Assembly (NCBI GenBank): GCA_009379895.1 | Contig: WHSW01000002.1 | Location: forward strand, 1-62,925 | From: Solirubrobacterales bacterium | Lineage (GTDB): Bacteria; Actinomycetota; Thermoleophilia; Solirubrobacterales; 70-9 | Length of the DNA stretch: 62,925 nucleotides | Direction: 5' to 3' | In this document: one piece after another, positions 631 through 52,332 of the stretch | How positions within the stretch are numbered: position 1 is the stretch's first letter | Layout: every line of letters starts with the position of its first letter | The notes under the pieces: generated by a model | The model's input: only the letters and a program-made list of their open reading frames with translations | Told to the model about the DNA's origin: nothing | Database searches by the model: none | Program-made: the position numbers and the translations under genes

Positions 631-1478
631 GCGCCGATCGGATCACCTACGTCGGTCACGCGACGGCGCTGGTCGAGCTCGGCGGCGTTCGCCTGCTCAC
701 CGATCCGATGTTGCGCCGGCGGCTGCTGCACATCGCGCGCCACCCGCCCGAGCCCGACACGGGCGTCACGGAGGAGATCGACGCGGTCCTGCTCTCGCAT
801 CTGCACCCCGACCACCTCGACTTCCCCTCGCTGCGATCGATCGGCGCCGACACGCGCGTGATCGCGCCGCGCGGCGGCGCGCGGACGCTGGCGCGCCGCG
901 GCGTCCGAGCGGTGACCGAGCTCGCCCCGGGCGATTCGACGACCGTCGGCGCGCTCGAGGTCGCGGCGGTGCCCGCCAGCCACGACGCCCGCCGCTACCG
1001 GATCGGGCGCCACGTCGACGCGCTCGGGTTCGTGATCACGGGCGGGCGGCTCGCGGGCGGGCGCGGGGGCGAGGGGCTCGCGGGCCAGCAGGTCGGGGGC
1101 GAGGGGCTCGCGGGCGCACACCGCGTCTACTTCGCCGGCGACACCGACCTCTTCGACGAGATGGCGCAGATCGCCGACGGTGGGCTCGACGTCGCCATGC
1201 TGCCGATCGCCGGCTGGGGCCCGACGGTCGGTAAGGGTCATCTCGACCCGACGCGCGCCGCGGAGGCCGCGGCGATCCTGCGGCCCCGGGTGGCGATCCC
1301 GATCCACTGGGGGACCCTGTTTCGGATCGGGATCCTGCGCCGCCGACCGCACCTGGTCGAGCGGCCGGCGAGCCGCTTCACCGCCGAGCTCGCCGAGCTC
1401 GCGCCCGGGGTCGAGCCGCGGGTGCTCGCCCCCGGCGAGAGCTACGAGCTGGCGCAGCTCGACGAGCGCTCGGCGTAG
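627..1478 (+). CDS. Metallo-beta-lactamase-fold hydrolase (NAPE-PLD/UlaG-like)
   Basis: 283 residues. The opening GHATALVELGGVRLLTDP followed by the metal motif HLHPDH (H58, H60, D62, H63), a later FAGDTD and a final PIHWGT are the standard metal ligands of the UlaG/NAPE-PLD-type branch of metallo-beta-lactamase-fold hydrolases, which often act on phosphodiester bonds in lipids. It starts inside the stop of the upstream lipid-related membrane gene (ATGA), suggesting a shared membrane-lipid role; that is inference. A low-complexity insert (about residues 140-165) is encoded by a 21-nt repeat at 1065-1085 and 1095-1115. The 3' end overlaps the convergent HNH gene by 37 nt. Confidence 0.85.
   Translation: MSADRITYVGHATALVELGGVRLLTDPMLRRRLLHIARHPPEPDTGVTEEIDAVLLSHLHPDHLDFPSLRSIGADTRVIAPRGGARTLARRGVRAVTELAPGDSTTVGALEVAAVPASHDARRYRIGRHVDALGFVITGGRLAGGRGGEGLAGQQVGGEGLAGAHRVYFAGDTDLFDEMAQIADGGLDVAMLPIAGWGPTVGKGHLDPTRAAEAAAILRPRVAIPIHWGTLFRIGILRRRPHLVERPASRFTAELAELAPGVEPRVLAPGESYELAQLDERSA
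1065..1115 (+). repeat. In-frame 21-nt direct repeat, 30-nt period
   Basis: Two identical 21-nt copies (1065-1085 and 1095-1115) lie inside the metallo-hydrolase gene. The 30-nt period keeps frame and encodes the repeated GGEGLAG motif, an insertion between two beta strands. Confidence 0.9.
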
Positions 1479-2866
1479 CCGGCCGTCTCGGGAGTCCGAG
1501 GCCCCGAGCCCGCGACCAGCACCGCATCCACACACATGCCCAGGTCCACCTTCTCGCCGGTGCCAGTGAGCGTCGGCGCGCGGGCCGGCGGCAGCTCGGC
1601 CCGGTCGACGGGGGGTGGAAGGGGCGAGACGGGAATCGACGATCCGTCCGGGCGCGCGAAGCGCCGACGACCGTCGGCGTCCAGCGCCAGCGAGAAGCCG
1701 GCCTCGTGGACAAGGCGGTGGTGGTGGCGACAGAGCAGGACGAGGTTCGACAGGCCCGTCTCGCCACCGTGAGCCCAGTGGCGTATGTGGTGAGCATCGA
1801 CGAAGCGCCACCGCTCACAGCCCGGGAACTGACAGCGCCCATCTCGCGCCACGAGCGCGCGGCGGACCGAGGGCGGGATCGAGCGCCTTCGTCGACCGAC
1901 GGCGACCGGCTCGCCGTCGCGCTCTGAGATCGTGACCAGCGAGGAGTCGCACGCCAGCCTGCGCGCGGTCTCGGGCGAGATCGCGGGCCCGTCGGCGATC
2001 GCGCACGCGCCGCGCCCGGTCGCGGTGGCGCCGGGCTCGTCGGTGGCGAGCGTCTCGGCGTCGACGTGGACGAGCAACTGGTAGCGCTCGCCGCCCGGCA
2101 GACCCGTGGGCGGGCGCGCGAGCGCCGCCTCGGCGAGCGCGGCCAGCGACTCGGCGTTGGTCGGCGAGGGCACTGGGCGGGCGGCGGGAGGCTCGGGCGG
2201 TTCCGCGGAACCGCTCGGCCCAGTGGCAGCGAGCGGTCCCGCGGAACCGCCCTCGTCCTCCCGCCTCTCATAGACCGCATCGCGGGCGGACTCCAGCGCG
2301 CGCAGAAAGAGCGCCCCGTCCTCGGGCGAGAGCCTGGCGTCGAGGCGAAGGCAGCCGTCATCGTCGTCCCAGCACCAGCGCACGAAGGTTCGGCTCTGCG
2401 CCTCGTCGGCCTCGGCGGCGCTCACCCGGTGTGCGGCGCGGACCACCCGCTCGAGCTGGGCGGCGGTGGCGTGGCGGGCAAGCTCCAACAGCTCCGCCTC
2501 GCTCTCGCCGTCAGCGACCCAGGTCAGCGCCCGCACCTTCGAGTAGCTCAGCGCGCCGCTGGCAAACGCCGCACGGATCCGCGGCAGATCGGGGAGCGCC
2601 CGCGCGACGCGGACGTGCTCGCGCGCCGAGCGCGGGTTGAGCGCGCAGCGCCAGGCGATCCACTCCGAGATCGAGCGACAGCCCGTGTCGCCCCAGCCCT
2701 CGCGGCGGTCGAACTCGGCGACCAGCTCGAGCCAGCGCGCGCAGCCGGCGTTGATCTGGGCGGCCAGCGACTCGATCTCGCGCTCGATCAGCTCGAGGGG
2801 GACCGTGGACAGCGGCTCGGGAGAGTCTGCCGTCCGTTCCGTCCGTTCGGTAACGTCCCAGAACAT
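1442..2866 (-). CDS. DUF222 / HNH endonuclease domain protein (13E12-type), SOS-box controlled
   Basis: 474 residues. The N-terminal half is the helical DUF222 domain (EWIAWRCALNPRSAREHVRVARAL near residue 70). The C-terminal part carries a clear HNH motif: CQFPGCERWRFVDAHHIRHW, then GGETGLSNLVLLCRHHHRLVHE, with the paired Cys for a zinc ribbon. This is the actinobacterial 13E12-repeat family, often multicopy and in mycobacteria DNA-damage inducible. The ATG at 2866 lies inside a perfect GAAC-N4-GTTC LexA-type box (2861-2872), and a TACTAT -10 hexamer (2875-2880, minus strand) ends 8 nt before it, so the message may be leaderless. The role in the cell is not established. Its 3' end overlaps the convergent hydrolase gene. 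Confidence 0.88.
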   Translation of the reverse strand: MFWDVTERTERTADSPEPLSTVPLELIEREIESLAAQINAGCARWLELVAEFDRREGWGDTGCRSISEWIAWRCALNPRSAREHVRVARALPDLPRIRAAFASGALSYSKVRALTWVADGESEAELLELARHATAAQLERVVRAAHRVSAAEADEAQSRTFVRWCWDDDDGCLRLDARLSPEDGALFLRALESARDAVYERREDEGGSAGPLAATGPSGSAEPPEPPAARPVPSPTNAESLAALAEAALARPPTGLPGGERYQLLVHVDAETLATDEPGATATGRGACAIADGPAISPETARRLACDSSLVTISERDGEPVAVGRRRRSIPPSVRRALVARDGRCQFPGCERWRFVDAHHIRHWAHGGETGLSNLVLLCRHHHRLVHEAGFSLALDADGRRRFARPDGSSIPVSPLPPPVDRAELPPARAPTLTGTGEKVDLGMCVDAVLVAGSGPRTPETAGYAERSSSCASS

Positions 2867-2872
2867 ATGTTC
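2861..2872. promoter_or_regulatory. LexA/SOS box over the DUF222-HNH start codon
   Basis: GAACATATGTTC is a perfect 12-bp palindrome matching the Gram-positive LexA core GAAC-N4-GTTC. It covers the start codon and the expected transcription start just after the TACTAT -10 element. A bound repressor there would block transcription initiation. Confidence 0.75.
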
Positions 2873-3012
2873 GTATAGTAGATCGGCCCTCGGACGGAAA
2901 CTCCGGCGCGGCAGAGTTGCGACCCCACCTCAAACGTCGTGCTCTCGGGATCGATGAGGTTCGGCCCGAAGTCTCGACGAGAAGGGCCGGCGCCAATCCG
3001 AGACCGTGACGG

Positions 3013-5214
3013 TCAGGCTGCTGGTGGTGCGGATTCGCGCTCGGCGTAGCCGGCGTGTCCGAGGGCGGCCAGCCAGCCGGCCATGATCCTGTGCACGGCC
3101 TCGGCGCCGACCGGGTCGGTCCCGGGCCACGCCAGCCCGGCGGGAAAGCAGACGAACGGATACCCCTGGCCGCCGCCCATGCCGCCGTGTGAGCCGACCA
3201 GCTCCTCGAACGCGGCGACCTCGCCGATCGCCGGCCAGTAGGTGCTGTTGACGACCAGGTCGGGGCAGTGGGCGAAGCCGTCGGTTCGCCTGACGTGGTC
3301 GGCGGCGTGCGGCCCGAAGGGCGCCAGCGGGTCCGCGCCCTCGACCCGGTCGGCGTCCAGGTGGTTGATCCCCTCGGCGCCGATCGCGAGTGCCCCCTCG
3401 CGGTCGGAGCGCACCAACACGAAGCCGATCCCGGGGTGGTCGCGCAGCGCCGGCAGGAGCTCGGGGTAGAGCTCTGCGATCCGCTCGAGGCTCAGCCTTC
3501 CCGGCTCGCGCGGGAAGCTGATCAGCCCGAGGCAGCCCGAGGCCATGACCGAGATCTCGGGCAGTGTCGGTTCGACCGCGCCGCCCCGCTCTCCGACCTC
3601 GCCGCCCGGCCCGCCCACCTCGCCGCCCGGCCCGCCCACCTCGCCGCCCGGCTCGCCGCCCTCGTCCCCGCCCTCGCGCGTGGCCGCTCCCCCGCCGTCC
3701 TCGCGCGGCGCCGCTCCCGCGCCGGCCCCCGCCACCCCCTCGAGATCGACCACCCCGTCGTCGCTGTGGCGCCTGGTCGCGGTGCGTACCGCCCTCGCCG
3801 TCGCGGTCTCGTCGCGCGCCATCTCGGTCAGCCCGGCGCTCAGGTAGGAGAGCGCCTCGTCGCCGCTCGAGTCGGTCTGCACCCGGTGCGCCCCGCCGGC
3901 CTCGCGGACGAGCTCCTCGAGCGTCAGACCGTAGCGCTGGCGGAACGTGGCGCCCTGTGACTGGCCGTGGTCGGAGAGAACGACGAGCAGGTAGGGGCGC
4001 GGCGCGTCGGCGGCCGCGGCCTCGATTCGGGCGAGTTGGCGATCGACCTTGGCGAGCACGGCGAGAGTGTCGGCGCGCTCGATGCCGGAGTGATGGGCGA
4101 CCTCGTCGTAGGCGAGGAACGTGGTGTAGACGACCGGACGCCCGGCGAGCATGTCGGCGACCACGGAGGCGATCTGGAGATCGAGCTGGACGACCGTCGC
4201 CCAGGCGCGCACGAGCGCGTAGGTGCGCGAGCGCGCGATCCGCGGGCGCACGTCGCGACGGCGCTCGCGCGCGGCGGCCCGGCGCTCGCGCGCGTACTCG
4301 GCGATCGAGGCGATCAGGGTCTTGGCGACCGCGTACGGGGCGGCGAAGTAGGCGGCGTAGTCGCGGCCGATCGGCCGCCGGCGGCGCAGCACGGTGCTCA
4401 TCGTCAGCATCGAGTGGGGGGCGTCGCCGGAGAGGATGTTCGCCCTGCTGGCGCCGTCGGCGTGCAGGAGCCCGCGGCCGTCGGAGTGCCGCCGCTCGAG
4501 CTCCTCGGCGTCGCGGGGGTGGTTGGTGACGATCGCGCGGTCGCGGTCCTTCTCCCACCAGCGAAAGGCGGGCATGTCCTCGTTGGAGCCGTGCAGCAGG
4601 CCGGCCTGGCAGGCGCCCGTCTGCGAGGACCAGTCGGTCTCCCAGCGCTCGAGGCGGTGGCCGCCGTCGCGCACCCAGCGCGAGAGGTTGGGCATCGTCC
4701 CGTCGCGCAGCGCGCGAGCGGCGATCTCGTGGGCGAGCCCGTCGATCTCGCAGAGGACCACCCCCGGGATGTCGCTGTGGATCACCTCTCCGCGGCGCCG
4801 GGCCTGGCGGCGGACCACGTTGCGATACCAGCTCTCGTCGTCGTGGATCGCCAGCAGCGAGGCGACGAGCGCCGTGATCACGGTCATCCCGATCGTGACC
4901 AGGATGCCGTCGAACCAATTGTCGATCGAGGCGCCCGGGATGATCAGCGTCGCCGCGACGACCACCACGCCGTTCAGCGCCAGCGCGAAGCCGCCCAGCG
5001 TGAGCACGTTGAGCGGCAGGGCGACGCGCGCCACCAGCGGCCAGACGAGGGCGTTGATCAGGCCGACGATCGCCGCCATCCCGAGCGCCGCGCCCGGGCC
5101 GTCGAGCTCGAAGCCGTCGCGCAGCTGCGAGAGCGCAAGCAGGGCGACGGCGTCGAGCAGCAGCACGACCGCCGCGCGCAGCGCCACCCGCGGGCGCGAG
5201 CTCTGCGGCCTCAC
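3013..5214 (-). CDS. Membrane-anchored alkaline-phosphatase-superfamily phosphodiesterase with phage-holin-like N-terminus
   Basis: 733 residues. Residues 1-125 hold four hydrophobic segments (LRAAVVLLLDAVALLALS and on) resembling the 'phage holin family 4' membrane domain. The rest looks like a type I phosphodiesterase/nucleotide pyrophosphatase: CEIDGLAHE near residue 154, TMPNLSRW, YDEVAHHSG and LSDHGQSQG supply the usual Asp/His metal ligands. Actinomycetes commonly carry this fusion; the substrate is unknown. A Gly/Glu-rich linker (about residues 520-540) is encoded by 21-nt tandem repeats. The GTG start overlaps the stop of the upstream small gene (GTGA), so the two form an operon. Confidence 0.78.
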   Translation of the reverse strand: MRPQSSRPRVALRAAVVLLLDAVALLALSQLRDGFELDGPGAALGMAAIVGLINALVWPLVARVALPLNVLTLGGFALALNGVVVVAATLIIPGASIDNWFDGILVTIGMTVITALVASLLAIHDDESWYRNVVRRQARRRGEVIHSDIPGVVLCEIDGLAHEIAARALRDGTMPNLSRWVRDGGHRLERWETDWSSQTGACQAGLLHGSNEDMPAFRWWEKDRDRAIVTNHPRDAEELERRHSDGRGLLHADGASRANILSGDAPHSMLTMSTVLRRRRPIGRDYAAYFAAPYAVAKTLIASIAEYARERRAAARERRRDVRPRIARSRTYALVRAWATVVQLDLQIASVVADMLAGRPVVYTTFLAYDEVAHHSGIERADTLAVLAKVDRQLARIEAAAADAPRPYLLVVLSDHGQSQGATFRQRYGLTLEELVREAGGAHRVQTDSSGDEALSYLSAGLTEMARDETATARAVRTATRRHSDDGVVDLEGVAGAGAGAAPREDGGGAATREGGDEGGEPGGEVGGPGGEVGGPGGEVGERGGAVEPTLPEISVMASGCLGLISFPREPGRLSLERIAELYPELLPALRDHPGIGFVLVRSDREGALAIGAEGINHLDADRVEGADPLAPFGPHAADHVRRTDGFAHCPDLVVNSTYWPAIGEVAAFEELVGSHGGMGGGQGYPFVCFPAGLAWPGTDPVGAEAVHRIMAGWLAALGHAGYAERESAPPAA
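3595..3657. repeat. 21-nt tandem repeat, three copies, inside the phosphodiesterase gene
   Basis: On the minus strand these encode three copies of the 7-residue unit GGEVGGP (the last one changed to GGEVGER). The repeat is in frame and forms a flexible linker between conserved parts of the enzyme. Confidence 0.85.
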
Positions 5215-51606: not shown

Positions 51607-51618
51607 GAACACACGTTC
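51607..51618. promoter_or_regulatory. LexA/SOS box upstream of the HTH-HNH gene
   Basis: GAACACACGTTC fits the LexA core GAAC-N4-GTTC perfectly. Its centre is about 42 nt before the ATG at 51655; a weak GAGAAT -10 (51643-51648) ends 6 nt before that ATG, so the box would cover the -35 region. Confidence 0.7.
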
Positions 51619-51654
51619 GCTTTTTCCGTCCGACGCTGGCGGGAGAATTGGGCC

Positions 51655-52332
51655 ATGGATCGTGATCAGCTCAGGGGATGGCTTGGAGACGGGCTCTCGC
51701 TAGAGCAGATCGGGGCGATCGTCGGTCGCGATCCCTCGACCGTCGCCTACTGGTTGAAGAAGCATGGCCTGGTCGCCAACGGGCACGCGAAGCACGCCGC
51801 CAAGGGGGGACTGCCGCGGGACGAGCTCGAGACGCTGGTGAGGGCCGGCGAAACGCTGGCTGTCATCGCCGAGTCATTTGACGTCAGCATGCGCACCGTC
51901 CGTTATTGGATCGAGCGCTACGAGCTGCCCCGACCGCATTCGGTCCGTCGAACCGCGATCGAACGCGCCCTGGAGGAAGGTCGGCGCACCCTGTTCCTCG
52001 ATTGCGGGATCCATGGGTGGACCGTGTTCGTGCTCGAGAACAGCGGGCGTTCCCGATGCAGGGCTTGCCGCATGGAGCGCGTCGCCGAGTGGCGCCGTAG
52101 GACAAAGGCAAAGCTCGTCGCCGAGGCCGGCGGGGAGTGTCGGCTCTGCGGCTACAAGCGCTGCCAGGCGGCGCTCCAGTTCCATCACCTCGATCCGTCG
52201 AAGAAGTCGTTCGCGCTGTCGTTGCGCGGTGTGACGAGGTCGATTAAGGAGCTGCGGGCGGAGGCTGCGAAGTGCGCGCTGCTCTGCGCAAACTGCCACG
52301 CCGAGGTGGAAGGGGGCTTCTCGCAACTCTAG
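51655..52332 (+). CDS. HTH-HNH protein (homing-endonuclease or phage-type), SOS-box controlled
   Basis: 225 residues. Two tandem helix-turn-helix segments (LSLEQIGAIVGRDPSTVAYWLKKHGL at 15-40 and ETLAVIAESFDVSMRTVRYWIERYEL at 64-89) are followed by a Cys-rich segment (CRACRMERVAEWRRR near 139) and an HNH-type zinc nuclease motif CRLCGYKRCQAALQFHHLDPSKKSF...CALLCANCHAEVE. Proteins of this build occur in actinobacterial phages and as stand-alone genes; the target is unknown. The ATG follows the LexA-type box. The gene is adjacent to an unusual tRNA-Asn on the opposite strand. Confidence 0.8.
   Translation: MDRDQLRGWLGDGLSLEQIGAIVGRDPSTVAYWLKKHGLVANGHAKHAAKGGLPRDELETLVRAGETLAVIAESFDVSMRTVRYWIERYELPRPHSVRRTAIERALEEGRRTLFLDCGIHGWTVFVLENSGRSRCRACRMERVAEWRRRTKAKLVAEAGGECRLCGYKRCQAALQFHHLDPSKKSFALSLRGVTRSIKELRAEAAKCALLCANCHAEVEGGFSQL

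Follow-up and report, generated by a model that had tools for sequence, protein, structure and literature searches.

Promoters that respond to DNA damage in Actinobacteria are the closest described systems for the gene considered here, a DUF222-HNH nuclease gene on a 62,925-nucleotide stretch of Solirubrobacterales DNA (contig WHSW01000002.1 of assembly GCA_009379895.1; hereafter "the window"). The lexA gene of Mycobacterium tuberculosis is leaderless and SOS-autoregulated, with its start codon at the transcription start (available excerpt of PMC2897130), and 13E12-family HNH genes are named among the LexA targets of that organism (PMC4181829, in the part available), which supports the SOS link stated for mycobacterial 13E12 relatives in an earlier, sequence-only reading of the window. 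The LexA-independent promoters of mycobacteria carry the consensus tTGTCRgtg-8nt-TannnT (accessible part of PMC5656591), and PafBC joins the polymerase at a -26 motif (PMC11804915, as excerpted). In Streptomyces venezuelae, the M. smegmatis PafBC motif is seemingly not conserved, and the question is left open in the accessible portion of PMC9380542.

At the present locus, LexA control and a leaderless layout of the nuclease gene are strongly supported by comparison across genomes. It is likely, with good confidence, that the gene depends on a single damage-responsive promoter composed of a CGTCCG element, a -10 hexamer and a LexA box, from which it would be transcribed without a leader and in which the box lies over the start. 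The relevant features of the window are as follows.

2861 to 2872, minus strand: LexA-type operator GAACATATGTTC (very probable), overlapping both the start codon and the predicted transcription start; exact match, conserved in orthologues, box shared with the lexA promoter
2864 to 2866, minus strand: ATG start codon within the operator, at box offset +6; the sole in-frame ATG, GTG or TTG after the stop at -66 and before residue 111
2868, minus strand: predicted transcription start, 2 nt 5' of the ATG (by the rule of 7 nt past the last T of the -10)
2875 to 2880, minus strand: -10 hexamer TACTAT, read from the sequence as part of CGTCCG-N10-TANNNT
2891 to 2896, minus strand: CGTCCG element within TTTCCGTCCGA, exactly 10 nt 5' of the -10; possible -26 element for a PafBC-like activator
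1442 to 2866, minus strand: DUF222-HNH (13E12-like) nuclease gene, 474 aa (open reading frame, Pfam domains, alignment)

Promoter and start codon of the nuclease gene

Read along the minus strand, the promoter consists of TTTCCGTCCG, AGGGCCGATC, TACTAT, AC and GAACATATGTTC. The last of these is a GAAC-N4-GTTC palindrome with 0 mismatches at 2861-2872, and its own ATG (2866-2864) is the start codon of the DUF222-HNH gene, just as the sequence-only reading had proposed; the same reading had placed the TACTAT hexamer 8 nt before the ATG, where it is indeed found (2880-2875, 8 nt between). The minus-strand position of the gene, the CGTCCG element 10 nt 5' of the -10 and the presence of this layout on many other genes are additions to that account. 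When up to 2 mismatches are allowed, GAACATATGTTC is matched 3 times in the window where 0.16 would be expected, a count reached by 0 of 100 shuffles, while GAACNNNNGTTC also has 3 matches (0.46 expected).

The encoded protein carries DUF222 (E 6.3e-27, 95.1 bits against a Pfam cut-off of 24.4), the family to which the 13E12 genes belong, and HNH (E 1.5e-6, 28.7 bits against a cut-off of 21.4), with the histidines and the asparagine of the latter kept (H359, H360, N374, H382 and H383 are nearly invariant in the orthologue alignment). Matches among solved structures were at HNH level only, to IscB (E 0.005-0.008). The PADLOC matches of the protein span fewer than 30 residues, so that no defence-gene assignment is made, and the search of plasmids gave one weak DUF222 match only, hence no evidence of plasmid carriage.

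Since an in-frame stop lies at -66 and the next in-frame start codon falls at residue 111, the boxed ATG, 2 nt 3' of the predicted transcription start, is the only standard start giving the whole domain. No ribosome-binding sequence is evident 5' of it, and the 146 nt upstream fold no better than shuffles (z -0.23), giving no sign of a structured leader. A same-strand gene (3013-5214) lies 146 nt upstream, and a search of 2700-3100 revealed no terminator-like site; both points speak for translation from a longer read-through transcript of that gene, in which case the LexA operator would be real and the nuclease gene not leaderless. We consider this unlikely, as the want of a ribosome-binding sequence argues against it and as the orthologues repeat the -10, the CGTCCG spacing and the placement of the start within 0-2 nt of the predicted transcription start.

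A single leaderless promoter, the reading preferred here, would consist of CGTCCG, exactly 10 nt, TACTAT, 2 nt and the LexA box. RNA polymerase would start about 2 nt before the ATG and produce an essentially leaderless mRNA with its start codon inside the operator; bound LexA would cover the transcription start and the first codon, blocking initiation, until RecA-driven LexA cleavage upon DNA damage frees the promoter. We infer LexA binding, damage induction and leaderless transcription alike from sequence comparison. The start codon would be fixed relative to the promoter, with the LexA box sliding between two registers, standing either after the -10 or as the -10. The less certain part of the scheme is that LexA release and PafBC, activated by single-stranded DNA, may act at one and the same promoter.

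Conservation in the genome, the order and beyond

Of 151 genomes from this order, 17 contain relatives of the DUF222-HNH protein, and 19 orthologue loci include the N-terminal part (matches to the C-terminal half were excluded). Sixteen of the 19 carry a perfect LexA box; CGTCCG-N10-NANNNT is exact in 15 and has one mismatch in one more, as against 0 of 37 control windows. In 15 of the 16 motif-bearing orthologues the predicted transcription start and start codon are 0-2 nt apart (19 nt in L048), which lends support to the leaderless promoter suggested in the sequence-only reading. Several loci weigh against the layout being universal: L034 and L049 (one genome) have no box and L037 has a degenerate one; L038, L040 and L044 lack CGTCCG at the exact spacing; and the starts of L038, L044 and L048 lie well downstream of the box. 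L034 and L049 nevertheless retain the CGTCCG element, the -10 and the start in register, and these three parts thus appear to form a scaffold upon which the box is superimposed.

The start is found at box +4, +6, +12 or +14, in differing frames, in 13 of the 16 boxed loci (read by eye), and the N-terminal ~30 residues are not conserved in the orthologue alignment (where the L042 row is out of frame in its C-terminal part and contains a run of X). Alignment of the orthologues, advised by the earlier reading, showed the box to be conserved but the N-terminal residues not to be conserved alongside it. The proposal that the protein N-terminus constrains operator evolution was rejected on these grounds, together with the shifting register of the box and its absence from L034 and L049. 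Rather, the constrained unit looks to be the promoter plus the start codon, and the direction of the constraint is reversed, with the box apparently writing the first residues (MF, VF, MC).

The genome assembly (610 contigs, 88% complete) contains one strong LexA match (E 7.6e-24) and two much weaker ones. Its lexA promoter reads TCTACTATCCCGAACATGTGTTCTGG, with the layout TACTAT-CCC-GAACATGTGTTC, and is nearly the same as the nuclease promoter; furthermore, TANNNT-N0-6-GAACNNNNGTTC has 3 matches in 4.09 Mb, at two loci, namely the nuclease-gene box and lexA (one of the 3 is the nuclease-gene box on the opposite strand). GAACNNNNGTTC alone was rejected as proof of a LexA operator, since it occurs 20 times genome-wide against 14 for the reversed control; bare half-sites being weak evidence, the argument rests on context and conservation. 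The same count speaks for a palindrome that is chance or protein-driven sequence, unbound by LexA. This is very improbable in view of the box context shared with lexA, the retention of the box in most orthologue loci despite differing N-termini and the phylum-matched operators at proteobacterial DUF222 loci. GAACATATGTTC is very probably a working LexA operator, and the LexA-type box of the sequence-only reading gains from both the lexA layout and the orthologues.

More widely, DUF222 loci were surveyed in genome_contigs as the best 80 of 539 matches, 38 of them proteobacterial by title. A perfect CTGT-N8-ACAG box, the E. coli type of LexA box, lies within 250 nt upstream at 13 of the 38 proteobacterial loci; the 182 kb contain 14 sites of this kind in all (P 6e-16). 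GAACNNNNGTTC stands upstream in four actinobacterial loci, one myxococcal locus and one proteobacterial locus also bearing the CTGT-N8-ACAG box. On the other side of the balance, 25 of the 38 proteobacterial loci have no perfect box, and most loci outside Actinobacteria and Proteobacteria among these 80 have neither box type (the rokubacterial and gemmatimonadete loci carry neither in perfect form). Nevertheless, the DUF222-HNH nuclease gene seems often to bear the operator type of its host phylum, and the phylum-matched operators in Proteobacteria argue for real SOS control independently of the genome studied here.

Across the order, the promoter occurs in two classes. Class 1, CGTCCG-N10-NANNNT-N0-4-GAACNNNNGTTC, has the box just 3' of the -10, as in the window, and is present in 122 of 151 genomes, with 0 reversed-control matches. 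Class 2, CGTCCG-N10-GAACNNNNGTTC, in which the GAACAT of the box occupies the -10 position, was matched at least 150 times, in 92 of the 151 genomes, while the reversed control gave 10 matches. Of 95 class 2 promoters, 73 have a TG before the -10, compared with 3 of 57 class 1 promoters, which fits an extended -10 in class 2; 65 of the 95 have their in-frame start at +12 or +14, the positions from which a box-supplied -10 would begin transcription. Among class 1 promoters, 32 of the 37 that lie outside the lexA cluster have the ATG at box +6, compared with 4 of the 20 lexA promoters (Fisher 1e-6), and the lexA promoters of the order mostly have a leader. The box, the fixed spacing, the start codon positions and their order-wide conservation are directly observed.

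A looser search gave, among the 150 matches listed (mostly from one family), a GTCCG-to-GAAC gap with its peak at 18 (32 rows) and smaller peaks at 10 (12 rows), 13 (10) and 24-25 (21), of which 25 is the recA layout. Phylum-wide (296 genomes), class 2 is found in 31; outside the order, convincing class 2 promoters, judged by eye on core and TG, are confined to one other genome (G326) and a small number from the same taxonomic class.

The fetched loci contain 152 distinct promoters, which are not a random sample. The genes behind them encode LexA (20), a radical SAM protein (14), DUF222-HNH (13), DnaE2-like (12), ImuB-like polymerase (11), HTH-HNH or LAGLIDADG-like groups (8, 7, 6 and 2), DnaB-like (5), RecN-like (3), TnpB (2) and PDDEXK_5 (2) proteins and small proteins, besides numerous singletons, of which some are probably wrong. 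Their open reading frames were picked by length and third-position GC content (GC3), some wrongly, and were named by Pfam for representatives and by eye for the others.

The CGTCCG element and the loci that carry it

TTNCGTCCG-N10-TANNNT has 71 matches in 41 genomes of the family against 4 for the control (the control totals of 4 here, 10 for class 2 and 18 for the mycobacterial motif below were summed by hand). Reading 30 of these loci by eye gave recA (3), a small protein family (4), guaB (4), an 80-aa protein (10), nuclease-like genes and others 3' of the motif. The nuclease promoter combines a -26-register element with a TannnT -10, and CGTCCG promoters place GTC 12 nt before TannnT, the same register as in the mycobacterial PafBC consensus (PMC5656591, accessible part). 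The mycobacterial motif as such, tTGTCRgtg-N8-TannnT, shows no enrichment across the order (4 matches, compared with 18 for the control) and its use there was rejected; the nuclease promoter has CGTCCG instead. The genome encodes a 705-aa fused PafBC-like protein with two WYL and two WCX stretches and HTH_PafC (E 6.9e-6), and HTH_PafC is found in 40 of 41 relatives.

Some observations count against PafBC as the activator. HTH_PafC in the 705-aa protein falls below the Pfam cut-off (26.3 against 32 bits) and exceeds it in just 27 of the 41 genomes; in addition, CGTCCG-N10-TANNNT precedes guaB (in this genome too) and the 80-aa protein gene, both without a LexA box and with no obvious SOS role. 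Because of these genes it is quite possible, though on balance we doubt it, that CGTCCG is a general core-promoter element of the order, a -35 substitute for the housekeeping polymerase unrelated to PafBC, so that LexA alone would make the promoter damage-responsive. The strict motif is, however, too rare for a housekeeping element at the 71 matches given above, shows a strong association with lexA, recA, dnaE2, imuB-like and nuclease genes, and shares the register of the PafBC motif. A second damage-sensing control probably lies just 5' of the LexA box, and the more specific assignment of CGTCCG as the -26 element of the fused PafBC-like activator is in our judgement evenly poised.

Tentatively, and with a confidence that falls slightly short of balanced, we propose an order-wide two-key switch: a single leaderless promoter would be governed jointly by CGTCCG, as a diverged PafBC element at -26, and by a LexA operator placed over the -10 or the start site, and the regulon would comprise the DUF222-HNH, HTH-HNH, LAGLIDADG-like, PD-(D/E)XK and TnpB nucleases, dnaE2, imuB-like and recN-like genes and small proteins whose ATG lies in the operator.

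A second locus in the window carries related elements in another order.

51607 to 51618, plus strand: second box of LexA type, GAACACACGTTC, preceding an HTH protein gene; the box is 5' of the CGTCCG element and not on the start
51627 to 51632, plus strand: CGTCCG element, followed by N10, GAGAAT (51643-51648) and an ATG at 51655 (pattern scan)
51655 to 52332, plus strand: HTH protein gene, 225 aa, with Pfam HTH-type domains only and an HNH-like motif seen by eye; the ATG is predicted to be leaderless

Elsewhere, a small-protein family of the form MF...DL.I.FATLGEYG (L060, L149, L157, L160 and L171-L176, class 1) has the LexA-box ATG as its own ATG in 10 of 10 cases; the one member scanned has no Pfam match, FATL or FALLED motifs mark possible relatives in other families, and the relatives L083 and L084 have the CGTCCG promoter and no box. 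In the lexA promoters L242 and L245, the ATG at box +6 opens short similar frames (MFAP.D.R...EPAPWIS), possibly leaderless upstream peptides. Two TnpB-type transposon nuclease genes of the same genome have such a promoter (L024 and L356, on C388 and C57), one with a complete LexA box (GAACCTATGTTC) and the other departing from the palindrome at the last base. The guaB promoters L357, L061, L063, L064 and L071 have CGTCCG-N10-TANNNT without a LexA box, the ATG of this genome's copy lying 6 nt after the -10. The radical SAM gene at L132, with a class 2 promoter, contains an intein/LAGLIDADG-like insert, and at L022 (1427-2152, same genome) a PD-(D/E)XK endonuclease frame with a box at its start runs into a PhdYeFM antitoxin-like domain, which may be an assembly or frame artefact.

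Comparison with known systems

A search of open-licence literature returned no DUF222 paper tied to LexA and SOS among the matches listed, nothing on point for Solirubrobacter or Thermoleophilia with LexA or PafBC, and nothing on point for leaderless genes with LexA and PafBC or HNH; as it was limited to open-licence papers, novelty is provisional. For a large, little-studied actinobacterial order, the work gives a precise and testable layout of the promoters of the DNA-damage response. It also offers a candidate answer to what PafBC targets outside mycobacteria, left open for Streptomyces in the available portion of PMC9380542. Moreover, DUF222-HNH genes appear to carry the LexA operator type of the host phylum in both Actinobacteria and Proteobacteria, which raises the concrete question of the reason for which nuclease genes of this kind would be induced by DNA damage.

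The LexA regulon of S. venezuelae is likewise an actinobacterial one. Mycobacterial PafBC-dependent (RecA-NDp) promoters share with the present ones the GTC 12 nt before TannnT (excerpt of PMC5656591), and a PafBC-like protein is encoded here; in Solirubrobacterales, however, the flanks differ (CGTCCG), the LexA box sits on the same promoter and activation by PafBC is a prediction. The 13E12 genes of M. tuberculosis resemble the present nuclease gene in protein family and SOS link (PMC4181829, available part), whereas the constant CGTCCG-N10-(-10) arrangement, in which the box covers the start codon, is described here for the Solirubrobacterales gene. Finally, M. tuberculosis lexA is leaderless with its start codon at the transcription start, as predicted for the present nuclease gene (PMC2897130, as excerpted); in Solirubrobacterales, by contrast, lexA is mostly leadered, and it is the nuclease, polymerase and small-protein genes that are predicted to be leaderless.
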